From positions 1 through 60,582 of the IMG/VR virus record IMGVR_UViG_3300047094_000624: DNA of 60,582 nt. One strand, 5' to 3'. The translations under genes and the position numbers were made by a program. Of this stretch, positions 9,365-56,776 are shown one piece after another. Origin of the DNA: a virus. The stretch's first letter is position 1. Every line of letters starts with the position of its first letter. Below the pieces are notes generated by a model. It was not told the DNA's origin and did not search any database. It saw only the letters and a list, made by a program, of their open reading frames with translations.

Positions 9365-11208
9365 TATGATGCTCCTATCATAGTTACTATACTTTCATAT
9401 TTTAATTGTCTTTTAATTTCTTCTACCAAATCTCTTGCAGATATATTTGCACCGTTAATACTAATGTTTACTCCACCGTAATTAACTGTACCCATTCCAG
9501 CGGAACCAGCCCTATAAGCACCTGCACCACTAGCAGCAGCGTAACCACCTTCACCGCCGCCCCCACCGCCAGCGCCACCGCTTGTTGAACTGTCACCAGT
9601 AGTTATTCCACTTCCTCCGCCACTTCCTCCGTATTTACTTGAATCATAAAGACCTCGTGCACCAGAAGCGGGTAAATTTTTAGTTCCCCATTTACTTGTA
9701 ATAATTGCGTGATAAATTTCTTTAGGGTCAGCGTTTGCCCTAAATGCATCTACAACTGCTTTATAGTAGTTTAAATTTAAAGTTTTTAATGTGGCGTCAA
9801 AACCCATTTCCCAACTAGCATATTTTCTAACTCCATGGTCATTCATAGTTCCAAGTTCACCAGGCATTGATTTAGTTGTATTTAAAGGATTGAAATAAGC
9901 ACTGTTATTAGAATGCCCACCTTCTTGAGCCATCCAACGCATCATTGCTTGTACGTTAGTTTCACTAGAAGGGGCGTTCATTCCTGCTAATACTTTTTTA
10001 GCCCAACCAGCTCTATCAAAAGGACCGCCTTTACCACCATTGGGGATAACAACCCCATCTTCTTTAGGAACAAATATTTCTGGTCCTTTTTCTCCAACTA
10101 TGTATGATTTACCTTCTTCAGCCCCGCCACCATGATGTAAGCCGGGAAGGCCTAACAATTTATTTATAAGTCCTAAAATTGGAGCTAAAAGTCCACCAAT
10201 AAGATTTGCTCCAAGACCTACTCCACCTGAAAGAATTGGAGAAGTAGCAGCTGTTATTCCTCCAAGTTTTCCTTGCATAAATCCAAGAGCTTGTTGAGTT
10301 GCTGTTGTAGCACCCGTTGAAAGTAAACTTAATGAAGAAAGGTCTCCACCTTGAGCTCTTTGAAGTAAATACCTAATTATGGTATTTTTAGTTAATTCAT
10401 CAGGTCCATATAAATCATTTAAAAAGTTGTATAAACCAGAACCAGGTAATAAAGAACTTTGAATATCTTTTTTTGTTGGAGTTCTTCCTAAATTATTTGA
10501 AATCATTTGAAAAATTTTATCGCCAACTTCTTTAAAACTTTTTGGTTGGCCAGTTTGTGGGTCACGTATATCAATACCAAGCATGCGCATCATATTTACT
10601 GAACGAGCTTGATTCATTGTTCCCAGGACCTGCATACCCCCGGTTAATCCAGCACCTGGAGTTAATCTAGATATATCTGCGGCACTTGTAGTAATAGTTG
10701 AAGCAAAGTTACCTTGTCCAGTAAACCCATATCTTTGAGCTTCTAATAAAGCTCCCGCAGCATCTGTTCTACTTGTAGGCAATCCAGTGTTATTCATATT
10801 GCCTAACAAACTTTGAGTTTGTCTTCCGCTTAAGTTTCCAAAAAATCTTTGATAACTAATAACTGCATCAGTAGTAATGGCTGTTCCGGCTCCAGGAAGA
10901 GCGGCTTGTAACCCAGCAAATGCTGCACCACCAGCTCTTACAGCTGCTGGTCCAAATGAAGAGCCAGTTGGTTGACCCCCAGAAGCTCCACCAAATGAGG
11001 GGTTGTTGTTAAATACAGAGCCACCACCGCCTACATTTAGGTCTCCGCCTCCACCGCCACCCGTCCCCCCAGCAGTACCCATTGTGGAAGAGAAACGATT
11101 GGCTTGGCGTACCATTTCTTTCATGTCATTAGTAATTTCTCTAATGTGCTGTTTAGCTCCAGCTAAACCACCAGTAATGGCATCAGTAACTTGATTAATT
11201 TTATCCAC
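9364..11208 (-). CDS. Tail tape measure protein with lysozyme-like segment
   Basis: 614 residues from a GTG start with a strong GGAGGT ribosome site. The N-terminus is helical and then Gly-rich; the middle is Ala/Gly/Leu-rich and hydrophobic (GVGLGANLIGGLLAPILGL). The motif GKSYIVGEKGPEIFVP is a hallmark of tape-measure proteins. Residues about 400-510 (MMRWMAQEGG, YFNPLNTTKSMPG, WEMGFDATLKTLN, ITSKWGT) look like a transglycosylase-type domain that may open the wall during DNA entry. Its position directly after the frameshifted chaperone is canonical. The length suggests a fairly short tail. Confidence 0.88.
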   Translation of the reverse strand: MDKINQVTDAITGGLAGAKQHIREITNDMKEMVRQANRFSSTMGTAGGTGGGGGGDLNVGGGGSVFNNNPSFGGASGGQPTGSSFGPAAVRAGGAAFAGLQAALPGAGTAITTDAVISYQRFFGNLSGRQTQSLLGNMNNTGLPTSRTDAAGALLEAQRYGFTGQGNFASTITTSAADISRLTPGAGLTGGMQVLGTMNQARSVNMMRMLGIDIRDPQTGQPKSFKEVGDKIFQMISNNLGRTPTKKDIQSSLLPGSGLYNFLNDLYGPDELTKNTIIRYLLQRAQGGDLSSLSLLSTGATTATQQALGFMQGKLGGITAATSPILSGGVGLGANLIGGLLAPILGLINKLLGLPGLHHGGGAEEGKSYIVGEKGPEIFVPKEDGVVIPNGGKGGPFDRAGWAKKVLAGMNAPSSETNVQAMMRWMAQEGGHSNNSAYFNPLNTTKSMPGELGTMNDHGVRKYASWEMGFDATLKTLNLNYYKAVVDAFRANADPKEIYHAIITSKWGTKNLPASGARGLYDSSKYGGSGGGSGITTGDSSTSGGAGGGGGGEGGYAAASGAGAYRAGSAGMGTVNYGGVNISINGANISARDLVEEIKRQLKYESIVTMIGAS

Positions 11209-11222
11209 GGTACACCTCCAAT

Positions 11223-11373
11223 CTAGTTATATCTTCCGGCACGTTCTATCCAGTTCTTTCTTTCTTTTATAGTCATTCCTTTTATATCACCTAAAGTAAA
11301 ACCATTAAAAGCTCTTGCAATTACTTCAAACTGGTCATATAAATCTTTATATTGTTCTTCTTTATATGCGAAA
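11223..11373 (-). CDS. C-terminal extension of the tail chaperone reached by +1 frameshift
   Basis: After the chaperone stop (TAA, 11364-11362) a second frame stays open for 48 codons to a TAG at 11225-11223, 14 nt before the tape-measure start. It reads AYKEEQYKDLYDQFEVIARA ... DIKGMTIKERKNWIERAG, clearly protein-like, but has no usable start codon. The sequence TTT-C (11373-11370), two codons before the stop, would let tRNA-Phe slip from UUU to UUC, a +1 shift; a -2 shift would reach the same frame. The product would be about 312 residues. Such frameshifted chaperone pairs are general in long-tailed phages. Confidence 0.8.
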
Positions 11374-12162
11374 CAAAGCAGCTAAGGACAGTGGAACGTT
11401 TATATCTTTTCCACATGCCTTACAAGCCTTGTTCACCTCCATAAGGCGAGGGCCAGGGTTCTTTTCTAGTAATTCCATGGCAATTTTTTCTCTATCAGCC
11501 ATTCCAAGATTTAAAACGTCTTGAGGGCCTGTTACAGAAATTCCGTTTATTGACATAACGCAACCTGTTAATAAAATAGTATTTAATTCAGACATTGTCT
11601 TACTTGTAACACCATTAGATAGTTTTTTTTGAACTAATCCGTTAGGAAAAGCTAAAACTGTTTTACCAGCTTTAATATCTATTTCCCAAACTCTTTCATA
11701 AGGGTCTGCTAATTCTTTTACTTTAACATCTGAATTTAAATCAATTATAAGAGATTGTTCTTCAGAACATGAGTTACAAATTACTTTGTAATCTACTTCG
11801 TTTCCAAATGTTGCTTTTCTAATTCCTAAAAGTATTGCATCTCTGTCTCCAGACAAAAGAGAATCTAAATCATTTTCACTAGGTTTTTTATCACCTAGTT
11901 CTTCTAGCCCTCTTTGTAATATTACTTGAAGAGCTTTTGCTTCAGTTTCAGAACGAGCAATAATTTCTTCATCTACTCCGGTTAACTCTCTAACTTTTGC
12001 TTTTTTTATAACAGAACCTTCCTGGGGAATAAAACCCCCAGGAAGTTCTACTACCAAATTACTTGGAGTTTCTGTCTTTACTTCTTTAGCTGGTTCTTCT
12101 AATGCTTTTTCTGCAAATTGTTTTACTAAGTCCTCGTCAGTAATGACTTGTTTGTTTATCAC
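11362..12162 (-). CDS. Tail assembly chaperone, zero-frame product
   Basis: 266 residues from a GTG start with an AGGAG site. The N-terminal part is acidic and disordered, followed by VRELTGVDEEIIAR and QVILQRGLEELGD, a pattern seen in tail/baseplate assembly chaperones. Two Cys pairs, VICNSCSEE (about 150) and KACKACGKD (about 245), could bind one zinc. The gene lies between tube and tape measure, the usual place for chaperones that hold the tape measure before tube polymerisation. A frameshift extends it (see 11223-11373). Confidence 0.85.
   Translation of the reverse strand: MINKQVITDEDLVKQFAEKALEEPAKEVKTETPSNLVVELPGGFIPQEGSVIKKAKVRELTGVDEEIIARSETEAKALQVILQRGLEELGDKKPSENDLDSLLSGDRDAILLGIRKATFGNEVDYKVICNSCSEEQSLIIDLNSDVKVKELADPYERVWEIDIKAGKTVLAFPNGLVQKKLSNGVTSKTMSELNTILLTGCVMSINGISVTGPQDVLNLGMADREKIAMELLEKNPGPRLMEVNKACKACGKDINVPLSLAALFRI
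11370..11373 (-). promoter_or_regulatory. Candidate +1 ribosomal frameshift site UUU-C
   Basis: On the coding strand the order is GCT TTG TTT CGC ATA TAA. Re-pairing of the UUU-decoding tRNA on UUC, while the CGC codon waits in the A site, would move the ribosome into the frame of the 48-codon extension. No other heptamer of the -1 type is visible nearby. Confidence 0.6.
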
Positions 12163-12185: not shown

Positions 12186-12803
12186 TTAACTGGTTATTGC
12201 TCTAAAGTTATTATCAGTAAAGAATACTGACAATCCTTCGTGTACTAGTTGCATTGATTCAAACAAAATTTGGTTATCACCAGAATTTAAATCTGAATAA
12301 TTCAAAGTACTAATCCATGCATTTCTTAGTCTGAATCCCATTCTAGAAATGTTTTTATCTGTTGCGTTTGGATGAGATAAGACATAAATGTCAACATCGC
12401 ATCTAAAGCCTTTTGTTCCTAATGCAATACCTTCTCCAGATGAAACAGCAAACAGTCCACGCATCCATGTAATTGCTTGGTCATTTCCATACAAAACACC
12501 GCGTTGAAAAGATACAGGGTTAAATGTTGTCATACCAGGGATTTGATGAACAGTAGTGTTGTAACCACCTTCACGGTATTGAATTGGTTGTGTGTTAATA
12601 GAAAGACCACTGATATTGGTAAACCCACCAATAAAACCAGTAGAACTTCCATCAGCAGCGTTGTAGTTATTGCTAGAGCCGGTTTTTATTTTAGGACTAA
12701 ATACACCGTCTTTAGTTGGGGTAAACTCTGCGTAGAACCGGAAACTTCTTAAAGGGTCCGTTGCTACGGTAGAGAACCTATTTATAATGCTGTCAGTTGC
12801 CAT
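12186..12803 (-). CDS. Tail tube protein (T4 gp19-like)
   Basis: 205 residues. The N-terminal DPLRSFRFYAEFTP, the central GLSINTQPIQYREGGYNTTV, and the segment KLxG-type replaced by HQIPGMTTFNPVSFQRGV match the T4 gp19 / contractile-tail tube family. It lies directly downstream of the sheath gene, the standard order. It forms the inner tube through which DNA passes. Confidence 0.92.
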   Translation of the reverse strand: MATDSIINRFSTVATDPLRSFRFYAEFTPTKDGVFSPKIKTGSSNNYNAADGSSTGFIGGFTNISGLSINTQPIQYREGGYNTTVHQIPGMTTFNPVSFQRGVLYGNDQAITWMRGLFAVSSGEGIALGTKGFRCDVDIYVLSHPNATDKNISRMGFRLRNAWISTLNYSDLNSGDNQILFESMQLVHEGLSVFFTDNNFRAITS

Positions 12804-12817
12804 TAGTGTTTATCTCC

Positions 12818-14308
12818 TTATTCTACCGTGACGGTTGTTCCGCCATCGAACTGACCGATTTTGATGATTACGAATTCAGCAGGGCGTTGTAGAGCCACAC
12901 CTATTTCTAATCTAACTTCACCATTATCTATTGAAGCTAGTGTATTAGTTTCATCATCACATTTAACAAAGTAAGCTTGTTCTGGAGTGTCTCCTCTTAA
13001 GCCACCTTGATTCCAAAATTCAGTTAAGAATCCTGAAGTTACACCTGTTAGTTGACGCCATAAACGTTGGTCGTTTGGCTCAAATACTGCAAATTCTGTT
13101 AAGTCTGTTAACGCTTTTCGCAAGTAGATAAGTGTACGACGTATTGAAACATAGCGGTCTGAATAGCTGCCTCGTAGTGTACGAGCACCCATTACAACAA
13201 TTCCTGAACCAGGTATAAAACGAATTGCATTTACTGGAGGAACAGTTGAGTTTAATGTATCTAGTTCTGTGTTTGTTAATTGTGCAACAGACACAGCTCC
13301 AGCAATACGAGTGTCTAAACCAGCAGGGGCTTTAAATACTCCACGTGCAGAGTCAGTTGAAATATACTTTCCAACAATAGCTCCACCAGGTGCCACTGTT
13401 AAAGTAATATTTGGAGTGGTTACTGTTGGGTCTTTCATTACTATTCTTGGGTAATAAACAGCTGCGTAAGAAGAGTCTCCGTATGTAAGAGCTTTTGCTA
13501 ATACAGAAGACACTGTTACGTTAGCTTCTGGGTCAACCACAACAAACACATCTTCTCTATCTGCTGCATAAGCAATAATTTGATTAACAGCTGTTGTATC
13601 TGTAATGCCCGGTGCGTTTAGTACTAATGAATTTAATACAATATCAAAAGCACTTACCGCTCCAGAAATAGCAGTTGCAGTAACTGTTCCATCTGACGCT
13701 ACTCCAGAAAGATTTTGAACTGTAATATTTACAGGTCTCTTATCTTGTAGAGTACTTGCTGATAGCAAATCAGTTGCATCAATATATTTAGATTGAGAAT
13801 TAATAATTGACACTGCATATCTATCATCTAGTGCTTCCATACTTAAGTCATTAAATCTTTCAACAACAAAAGCTGCAGTTGCACCTTGATAGTTAACTGT
13901 TAAATCAAATGTATTTTGTGCAGAACTGTTAAAAATACTGATTGAAATATCATTCCCCCATTGACCTGGGTTTTTTGCAGTAACTCGTAATGTATCTAAA
14001 TCATTAGCATCAATCATTGTAAGAAGTGCTTTATTGCTGTTAGCTACAACTCTATGGATGTAAGCTTGGCTTCCACCATTTGAAAAAAATAATAGTACAG
14101 CGATTGGTAAATCATTTGAAGCGCGAACGTTCCATGAGCCATAAAGACTTATGTATTCGCTCCATGAATTTACTAGGGTAGGAACAACAGGACCGCGGTC
14201 AGTTGCACCAATAAATGCAGCAACAGTTTGTGAGTTTGGTCCCACAGCTGGTGCTAAAGCGTTTAATGTTTCTTCAACATAAACACCTGGCCTTAAATAA
14301 ATAGCCAT
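12818..14308 (-). CDS. Tail sheath protein
   Basis: 496 residues. The N-terminus YLRPGVYVEETLNALAP and the segment VAAFIGATDRGPVV are the signature of phage tail sheath proteins. The C-terminal domain has the conserved strand set ending in a beta strand (VALQRPAEFVIIKIGQF) that is exchanged between neighbouring subunits in contractile sheaths. Its presence shows that the phage has a contractile tail. Confidence 0.96.
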   Translation of the reverse strand: MAIYLRPGVYVEETLNALAPAVGPNSQTVAAFIGATDRGPVVPTLVNSWSEYISLYGSWNVRASNDLPIAVLLFFSNGGSQAYIHRVVANSNKALLTMIDANDLDTLRVTAKNPGQWGNDISISIFNSSAQNTFDLTVNYQGATAAFVVERFNDLSMEALDDRYAVSIINSQSKYIDATDLLSASTLQDKRPVNITVQNLSGVASDGTVTATAISGAVSAFDIVLNSLVLNAPGITDTTAVNQIIAYAADREDVFVVVDPEANVTVSSVLAKALTYGDSSYAAVYYPRIVMKDPTVTTPNITLTVAPGGAIVGKYISTDSARGVFKAPAGLDTRIAGAVSVAQLTNTELDTLNSTVPPVNAIRFIPGSGIVVMGARTLRGSYSDRYVSIRRTLIYLRKALTDLTEFAVFEPNDQRLWRQLTGVTSGFLTEFWNQGGLRGDTPEQAYFVKCDDETNTLASIDNGEVRLEIGVALQRPAEFVIIKIGQFDGGTTVTVE

Positions 14309-43792: not shown

Positions 43793-43836
43793 TTTTTCCA
43801 ATTCTTTAACACGATAGTTTAAGTTTAACCAATATG

Positions 43837-43909
43837 CTGTCCTGATTGGACTCGAACCAATAACCACTCGATTAACAGTCGAGTGCTCTGCCAATTGAGC
43901 TACAGGACA
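43837..43909 (-). tRNA. tRNA-Asn (anticodon GTT)
   Basis: Full cloverleaf on the minus strand: acceptor TGTCCTG / CAGGACA (7 bp), D arm GCTC-AATTGGCA-GAGC, anticodon stem CTCGA / TCGAG around CTGTTAA, variable TGGTT, T arm ATTGG-TTCGAGT-CCAAT, discriminator G. CCA is not encoded. It is just upstream of the terminase gene. Confidence 0.93.
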
Positions 43910-43915
43910 TCAGAG

Positions 43916-43987
43916 AGCCTCGAGTCAGGATTGAACTGACGACCTTCCGCTTACAAGGCGGATGCACTACCGCTGTGCTATCGAGGC
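43916..43987 (-). tRNA. tRNA-Thr (anticodon TGT)
   Basis: Full cloverleaf on the minus strand: acceptor GCCTCGA / TCGAGGC (7 bp), D arm GCAC-AGCGGTA-GTGC, anticodon stem TCCGC / GCGGA around CTTGTAA, variable AGGTC, T arm GTCAG-TTCAATC-CTGAC, discriminator T. CCA is not encoded. It would read ACA, a codon much used in the AT-rich structural genes. Confidence 0.93.
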
Positions 43988-56181: not shown

Positions 56182-56391
56182 TTAATGAATGCTAAGTAAA
56201 CCTAACTGATTTTCAGGGTCATATAAATTAAGTGCTTTAGTTTTTAATGTAACTACAGATTTTCTAGCATGATGACCACAGAAAAGTAATTCACCATTTA
56301 TAAAAGTTGCAGATACTTGAGCTGCAGCAGAACATGCGTCACAACGGTCGTCAGACGTAAAGACTCTTTCTTGAGTCTTAGTTAGTTCCAC
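56182..56391 (-). CDS. DUF7455-like zinc protein
   Basis: 69 residues. DRCDACSAAAQVSATFINGE, then LLFCGHHARKSV matches the small actinobacterial family DUF7455 (pattern CDxC ... CGHH), a zinc site of three Cys and two His. The gene overlaps the SpeD-like gene by 14 nt. It is one of the signs of an actinobacterial host. Confidence 0.83.
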   Translation of the reverse strand: MELTKTQERVFTSDDRCDACSAAAQVSATFINGELLFCGHHARKSVVTLKTKALNLYDPENQLGLLSIH

Positions 56392-56776
56392 CTTTTACCT
56401 CCGAGCCAGTTTCTATAATTTTAAACCCAACTTCTCTATCATAAAGGGCGTAATCCATAGAAACAATATCAAAACGTTCACGCAGACAATCTAATACAAA
56501 GTCTTTGTCTAAATCACCACAGGTGTATAAATCAAATTGTAATACAGATGGGTCTTTTTCATCCCAAATATGAAAAGCAATGTGTGAAGTTTCAATCATT
56601 ACAATAGCGGTTAGTCCACGATTACCTGGAACGTCTACATAAGAAGCAAATGGGCCTCTAACAATTTTCATTTTAATTTGATGAACTAGATGAATAAGAA
56701 ATTTAATAGCATCTTCTTCAGATTTAATTGGGTCTTGAACTTTAGCGTTTATCAATAAATGTTTGTGTTGTAACAC
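56378..56776 (-). CDS. speD: S-adenosylmethionine decarboxylase-like protein
   Basis: 132 residues. TSHIAFHIWDEKD and LQFDLYTCGD match class-1b bacterial SpeD. Ser 64 (would become the pyruvoyl group), His 65, His 69 and Cys 86 are present. The residue before the Ser is Thr, where the family normally has Glu (ESH), so self-cleavage may be altered. SpeD makes the aminopropyl donor for spermidine; in a phage it may shift polyamine supply or drain SAM. It is the only polyamine gene seen. Confidence 0.82.
   Translation of the reverse strand: MLQHKHLLINAKVQDPIKSEEDAIKFLIHLVHQIKMKIVRGPFASYVDVPGNRGLTAIVMIETSHIAFHIWDEKDPSVLQFDLYTCGDLDKDFVLDCLRERFDIVSMDYALYDREVGFKIIETGSEVKGGTN

Follow-up and report, generated by a model that had tools for sequence, protein, structure and literature searches.

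The window analysed here is an IMG/VR virus record (IMGVR_UViG_3300047094_000624) of 60,582 bases, and the question raised by its contractile-tail module is how a 48-codon open frame lying past the stop codon of a tail assembly chaperone gene comes to be translated. Frameshifted tail chaperones are textbook knowledge, those that shift by +1 being rare. The module lies on the minus strand and runs in the order sheath, tail tube, PF12322 protein, a gene in the tape-measure position, and then the hub and baseplate J genes (Table 1). The chaperone gene sits between the PF06841 tail tube gene upstream and the putative tape measure gene downstream, as in the G/GT arrangement. We found no Pfam match for the putative tape measure; GGAGG at 11219-11215 precedes its GTG (11208), and in Listeria phage LIS04 the corresponding downstream gene is annotated as a tape measure.

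A preliminary description of this DNA had called the gene a tail assembly chaperone. That identification stands, with the correction that the protein is of the T4 gp26/gp51 type: it matches the PF12322 profile with E=1e-13 and 51.9 bits (curated cut-off 24.5), and its relatives match as well. The identity is of consequence, since the published exception, with two genes in place of a frameshift, is that of the T4-like phages. The PF12322 gene is present in a single copy in the window, and its product is a member of the family outside the T4 arrangement of a short and a long paralogue.

Table 1. Features of the chaperone locus and its neighbours in the window.
Feature	Coordinates	Strand	Remarks
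Putative tape-measure gene, 614 aa	9364..11208	-	GTG start; assigned by position
Extension stop codon TAG	11223..11225	-	
+1-frame extension, 48 codons	11226..11369	-	C-terminal domain of the predicted long isoform; helix - short helix - helix
Tail assembly chaperone, short isoform	11362..12162	-	266 aa, GTG start; PF12322 / T4 gp26-gp51 family
0-frame stop TAA	11362..11364	-	two sense codons (CGC, ATA) past the slip codon
Base skipped in the putative +1 shift: C, first base of 0-frame CGC	11370	-	C in 76/76 clusters
Putative P-site slip codon TTT (Phe)	11371..11373	-	TTT in 76/76 clusters
E-site codon TTG (Leu)	11374..11376	-	YTG in 69/76 clusters; not obligatory
Tail tube protein	12186..12803	-	PF06841 Phage_T4_gp19, E=2.8e-21
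Tail sheath protein	12818..14308	-	PF17482, E=6.4e-9

The chaperone ORF ends in TCC TTA GCT GCT TTG TTT CGC ATA TAA. The +1 frame opens just after a TAG at 11384-11382, i.e. at 11381, and remains open to 11226, where a second TAG (11225-11223) closes it, so that a shift must fall within seven codons. No -1 slippery heptamer of the XXXYYYZ form was found in this overlap, and TTG TTT C|GC is the only place in it where a slip seems plausible. The preliminary description was right in the measurements it gave for this region, namely the length and position of the open frame (11369-11226), its +1 phase relative to the chaperone, the TTT-C two codons ahead of the stop (TTT at 11373-11371, then CGC, ATA and TAA), the 14 nt between the end of the extension stop and the GTG of the next gene, and the 312 residues of a fusion product, the short form having 266. 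The extension reads AYKEEQYKDLYDQFEVIARAFNGFTLGDIKGMTIKERKNWIERAGRYN, and the predicted tryptic peptide across the junction is DINVPLSLAALFAYK.

To collect relatives, IMG/VR was searched with the window protein and then with alignments (best 80 per search; the alignments brought up over 550 candidates), which gave a core set of 159 loci with a readable junction, of about 35-100% identity and 34-68% G+C, falling into 76 clusters at 85% identity. In every one of the 159, TTT C occurs once and once only where the two frames overlap, and a homologous extension follows in the +1 frame. The 0-frame stop follows the slip codon by one to seven codons in all of them, and by two or three in 154. The extension is 40-81 aa long, the shortest one running off its contig, and its core has the consensus DYxxLxxxYExLTRxFxGWTLxEIRxLSVRERxNWxxRA. 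The codon after UUU is CGN in 129 of the 159 loci, including the CGC of the window, and CAG, CAA, CTY or CCG in the others. Judged from these alignments, a layout shared by 159 homologous loci is far more than chance would give.

The gene is also found, at about 38% identity, in the Streptomyces phage isolates BRock, GiJojo, LuckySocke, Alone3 and pSt2308. A lone metagenome contig could carry an indel, and the two frames might then reflect a sequencing error, or else a decaying gene; both are refuted by the comparison, in which the same layout recurs in all 159 loci, the independently sequenced isolates among them, and purifying selection acts on both the chaperone and the extension, which leaves these explanations a negligible probability. 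In the five isolates the extension is annotated as a separate, late-start hypothetical protein or not at all, and what had been said of the window, that the frameshift is unannotated, is therefore true of them too. In BRock, the annotation makes the chaperone a baseplate protein and the gene at the tape-measure position an endolysin.

The comparison of coding sequences indicates that the extension is under purifying selection, in keeping with the protein character ascribed to it earlier. Its median dN/dS was 0.16 over the 105 pairs for which dS was finite, none of which reached 1, the absolute values being rough since dS is large; pN/pS was 0.29 for the extension as against 0.37 for the chaperone. 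When the extension alone was modelled with AlphaFold2, a pLDDT of 91.8 was obtained, with predicted helices at residues 4-20, 26-30 and 34-47.

The extension could instead be an independent small gene with a start codon of its own, at which ribosomes re-initiate once the chaperone has been terminated. The hypothetical proteins that GenBank lists for BRock, GiJojo, LuckySocke and Alone3 speak for this, as do two very distant contigs (L215 and L221) in which a domain resembling the extension follows an ATG in another frame and looks like a gene that has become independent; within the window's own family we found no such case. No start codon is conserved across the 76 clusters: ahead of the conserved motif there is no ATG in 61 of them, and not even an ATG, GTG or TTG in 19, while the possible starts are preceded by conserved residues. 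Re-initiation would also leave the invariant TTT C and the constant +1 frame unexplained, and we consider it very unlikely. The preliminary description had the extension lacking a start codon, which is correct in that no usable one lies upstream, but an in-frame ATG does occur inside it (the M of GMTIKERK), just 17 codons from the end and downstream of conserved residues.

The slip codon itself behaves as no other codon of the gene does. Its phenylalanine is written TTT in 76/76 clusters, while two further Phe columns that most of the chaperone sequences share, used as controls, showed TTT/TTC ratios of 44/18 and 17/30, and every other column in which one residue makes up 90% or more has two or more codons in use. 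Of the 218 columns free of gaps, it alone shows no third-base change when the codons are traced on a tree of the 76 proteins, the median being 29. Given each locus's own Phe codon usage, and treating the clusters as independent, the chance of TTT in all 76 is 1e-39, a figure that overstates their independence, as the clusters are related. The 19 clusters above 58% G+C use TTT for about 9% of their Phe codons, and yet the site is always TTT (chance 1e-21).

The base after TTT is likewise C in all 76 clusters, with no change on the tree. The residue that follows the phenylalanine changed 9 times in the 0 frame (Arg, Gln, Leu, Pro) and the first residue of the +1 frame 26 times; because the residue that it begins varies in both frames, this C is not demanded by either protein. 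We rejected an obligatory Leu before the slip codon: the E-site codon encodes Leu in the first 76 clusters, and ATC, GTG, ACC, GCG and ATG were found there in more distant loci.

Two further ways of joining the frames can be weighed against this invariance. The extension frame is formally also the -2 frame, as the preliminary description allowed, and Mu-type chaperones are reported to use a -2 shift. From UUU, a -2 shift would land on UGU, UCU, CCU and the like, depending on a variable preceding codon; none of these is readable by tRNA-Phe, no consistent -2 re-pairing results, and there would be no reason for a pyrimidine after UUU, the invariant C being left unexplained. A -2 frameshift, or another event other than +1 such as bypassing, is thus extremely unlikely. 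Slippage of the transcribing polymerase, which would insert or delete a base, could draw on the U run; the run is three U with non-U flanks in nearly all loci, where long homopolymers are normally needed, and slippage would not forbid a change from UUU to UUC so strictly, so that we find this explanation hardly credible.

The layout of the relatives had been proposed as the check on a +1 shift at TTT-C, and both the TTTC and the extension proved to be conserved throughout the homologues. We hold with high confidence that recoding at UUU_C is real, and a programmed +1 ribosomal frameshift in this T4-type chaperone gene very probably makes the long isoform. Most ribosomes would read to the TAA and release the short form, while in a fraction of those with UUU in the P site, tRNA-Phe (anticodon GAA) would advance by one base, leaving UUU for UUC, and so exchange a G-U wobble for a G-C pair and skip one C. 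The shifted ribosomes would read 48 more codons and add the predicted C-terminal helix - short helix - helix, with a junction reading ...ALF-AYK and no inserted residue. The open +1 frame with its conservation and purifying selection, the invariance of UUU_C and the absence of a conserved start are seen in the sequences themselves; the re-pairing step and the ratio of products we infer. By analogy with lambda gpG/gpGT, the short form in the window phage might coat the tape measure and the long form might recruit tail-tube subunits.

No stimulator became apparent around the site. Upstream, we found no Shine-Dalgarno-like element, as anti-SD pairing was at background level, and downstream the folding was near random (mean z near zero, at -0.24 and -0.68), without an Rfam match at 11100-11600. 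The A-site codon CGC is rare in the window (5.7 per 1000), but the CAG of many G+C-rich relatives is common (40-49 per 1000), and the codon of the +1 frame exceeds that of the 0 frame in usage in just 44 of 76 clusters; on these grounds, a rare A-site codon was rejected as the general cause. In contrast to prfB, the A site never holds the 0-frame stop, which comes one to seven codons farther downstream. With no stimulator and an A-site codon that is not generally rare, the site may be minimal and of low efficiency. If what is described for lambda (PMC5009743) can be carried over, few copies of the long form are required, and such low efficiency would suit the chaperone well.

Searches started from more distant members gave 29 new junctions, all UUU_C, and in addition one UUU_U (L276). 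Among the loci from bacterial genomes (Streptomyces, Saccharothrix, Terracoccus), UUU_C was present in 8 of 9, of which one (L197) is identical to an IMG/VR locus already counted and seven are new (L198-L204). These later samples together comprise 36 UUU_C junctions (29 and 7), one UUU_U and one gene without the site, the homologue of Streptomyces sp. AP-93 (L205), which also lacks the extension. The seven new loci, on Streptomyces and Terracoccus genome contigs, are prophage-like or tail-like and carry the same chaperone with UUU_C.

Still more distant PF12322 phages with a +1 extension include Bacillus phage SP-15 and related contigs, which have UUU_C, and Listeria phage LIS04, which has UUU_U. 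The huge phage LR756508 combines UUU_C and a +1 extension with one PF12322 gene. In a distant PF12322 group of marine contigs (L206-L214, L216-L220 and L222-L223) there is also a +1 extension, the slip apparently taking place at UUU_U followed by GG (TTT TGG). A purine after UUU was never seen in the core set, the later samples or the distant groups. This restriction to pyrimidines fits tRNA-Phe(GAA), because a forward slip pairs with UUC or UUU and not with UUA or UUG.

The family membership of the chaperone leads to the two genes of T4. That gp26 and gp51, the hub assembly chaperones, are the T4-type tail assembly chaperones was published by Vladimirov, Gautam and Davidson (2022, as cited in PMC10885494), and we dropped this role as a new idea. 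According to the same work, as cited in PMC10885494 and PMC12846349, T4-like phages have a short and a long gene instead of a frameshift, while the window has one gene and, as we propose, a frameshift. Both T4 proteins are members of PF12322, gp51 being the longer by about 48 residues at the C-terminus. In the predicted model of a T4-like gp51, the C-terminal helices fall at 206-221, 226-230 and 234-248, with nearly the same lengths and spacing as those predicted for the +1 extension. Such predicted helices at the C-terminus of gp51, in loci L100-L109 and in T4 (L099), link the long gene of T4 to the frameshift product.

A comparison of the long-form profile with the gp51 profile gave E=7e-5, in one pairwise comparison with the extension part included. 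The extension alone showed no significant sequence similarity to the gp51 C-terminus, as the same level was attained in 7 of 200 permutations. When the extension was submitted to a fold search, the hits, all with E of about 1 or worse and so no more than suggestive, included the tape measure chaperone of phage Moogle and, from phage ZZ1, a gp51-like hub assembly catalyst. Nothing useful came from a PDB search with the long-form profile or a fold search with gp51. PF12322 occurs in one copy in 16 of 16 frameshift-type records (the window and 15 others) and in two copies in T4 and two T4-like phages.

The closest precedent is found in haloarchaeal viruses. For the HF1 group, a TTT-CGC +1 chaperone site was proposed in 2020 (PMC7230728; also PMC5009743), and we saw it again in the HF1 sequence as GAG AAG TTT CGC AGA TAG. 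Like the window, these HF1/HSTV-2 myovirus chaperones have a +1 frame and TTT-CGC just before the stop; they differ in their archaeal hosts, in a 156-aa chaperone with no evident relation to PF12322, and in being known from six genomes of one close group. The preliminary description had called a +1 site of the UUU-C type uncommon, and while +1 shifts are indeed rare, this particular signal had thus already been put forward. The literature searched, which covered few subscription papers, contained no report of a UUU-C +1 chaperone site in phages of bacteria. What we describe is a widespread variant of a known phenomenon, with its precedent in the HF1 haloviruses and found here in bacterial phages, and what it probably adds is that the PF12322 family outside the T4-like phages uses a +1 frameshift.

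Other known systems share parts of this arrangement. Chaperones of the lambda gpG/gpGT type with a programmed frameshift (Xu, Hendrix and Duda 2004, as reviewed in PMC5009743) have two isoforms, a gene directly upstream of the tape measure, a C-terminal extension in another frame and a shift just before the 0-frame stop; that class mostly shifts by -1 at XXXYYYZ-type sites, unlike the PF12322 protein of the window with its +1 frame at UUU_C. The UUU_CGN +1 motif of amalgaviruses and influenza A PA-X (as cited in PMC7230728 and PMC5009743) likewise has a P-site UUU slipping to UUC and no evident stimulator. Those are RNA viruses on eukaryotic ribosomes, whereas here the codon after UUU is also CAG, CTC or CCG, its first base alone being fixed. 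The FseA activator of rhizobial ICEs (msi172-msi171) is likewise made by a +1 shift at UUU in bacteria, close to where the upstream frame ends, but it belongs to a conjugative element, and a conserved WG upstream has been suggested as its stimulator (PMC5009743). In the Listeria phages PSA, A118 and A500, +1 shifts also occur in structural genes, at CCC sites (CCC_UGA, CCC_UCC) in the major tail gene and, in PSA, the capsid gene (PMC5009743).

Reviews describe chaperone frameshifting as usually going in the -1 direction, with the T4-type phages set apart from it; here the T4 chaperone family itself appears to shift, and by +1. We tentatively suggest, as a possibility somewhat short of probable, that a +1 shift at UUU_Y is an old two-isoform route of contractile-tailed phages with T4-type chaperones, spread across the phages of several bacterial groups and reached in haloarchaeal viruses independently or by descent, and that the T4-like phages then gave it up by duplicating the gene into 26 and 51. 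If so, a minimal +1 site free of stimulators, working by re-pairing of the P-site tRNA-Phe only, would have been kept across a wide range of host G+C. The signal, four bases known mainly from RNA viruses of eukaryotes (animals and plants), spans hundreds of mostly uncultured, mostly actinobacterial-type phages and some Streptomyces isolates. Together they offer a large natural collection from which the requirements of a minimal +1 site, UUU and a pyrimidine, can be read, and which could be used to train frameshift predictors, poor as these are on +1 sites (PMC10885494). The annotations of the isolates can be corrected, and a route from frameshift to gene duplication becomes testable.

Elsewhere on the minus strand of the window, a phage-encoded S-adenosylmethionine decarboxylase, a polyamine-synthesis gene, lies at 56378-56776 (PF02675, E=4e-14), and two adjoining tRNA genes, Asn(GTT) and Thr(TGT), lie at 43836-43987. 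Between 24575 and 35951, also on the minus strand, there are several collagen-like proteins with GxQG-type repeats and a common recurring module, GDRWVDSNSGIEYTWIDDGTNQTWIEVSASGF.
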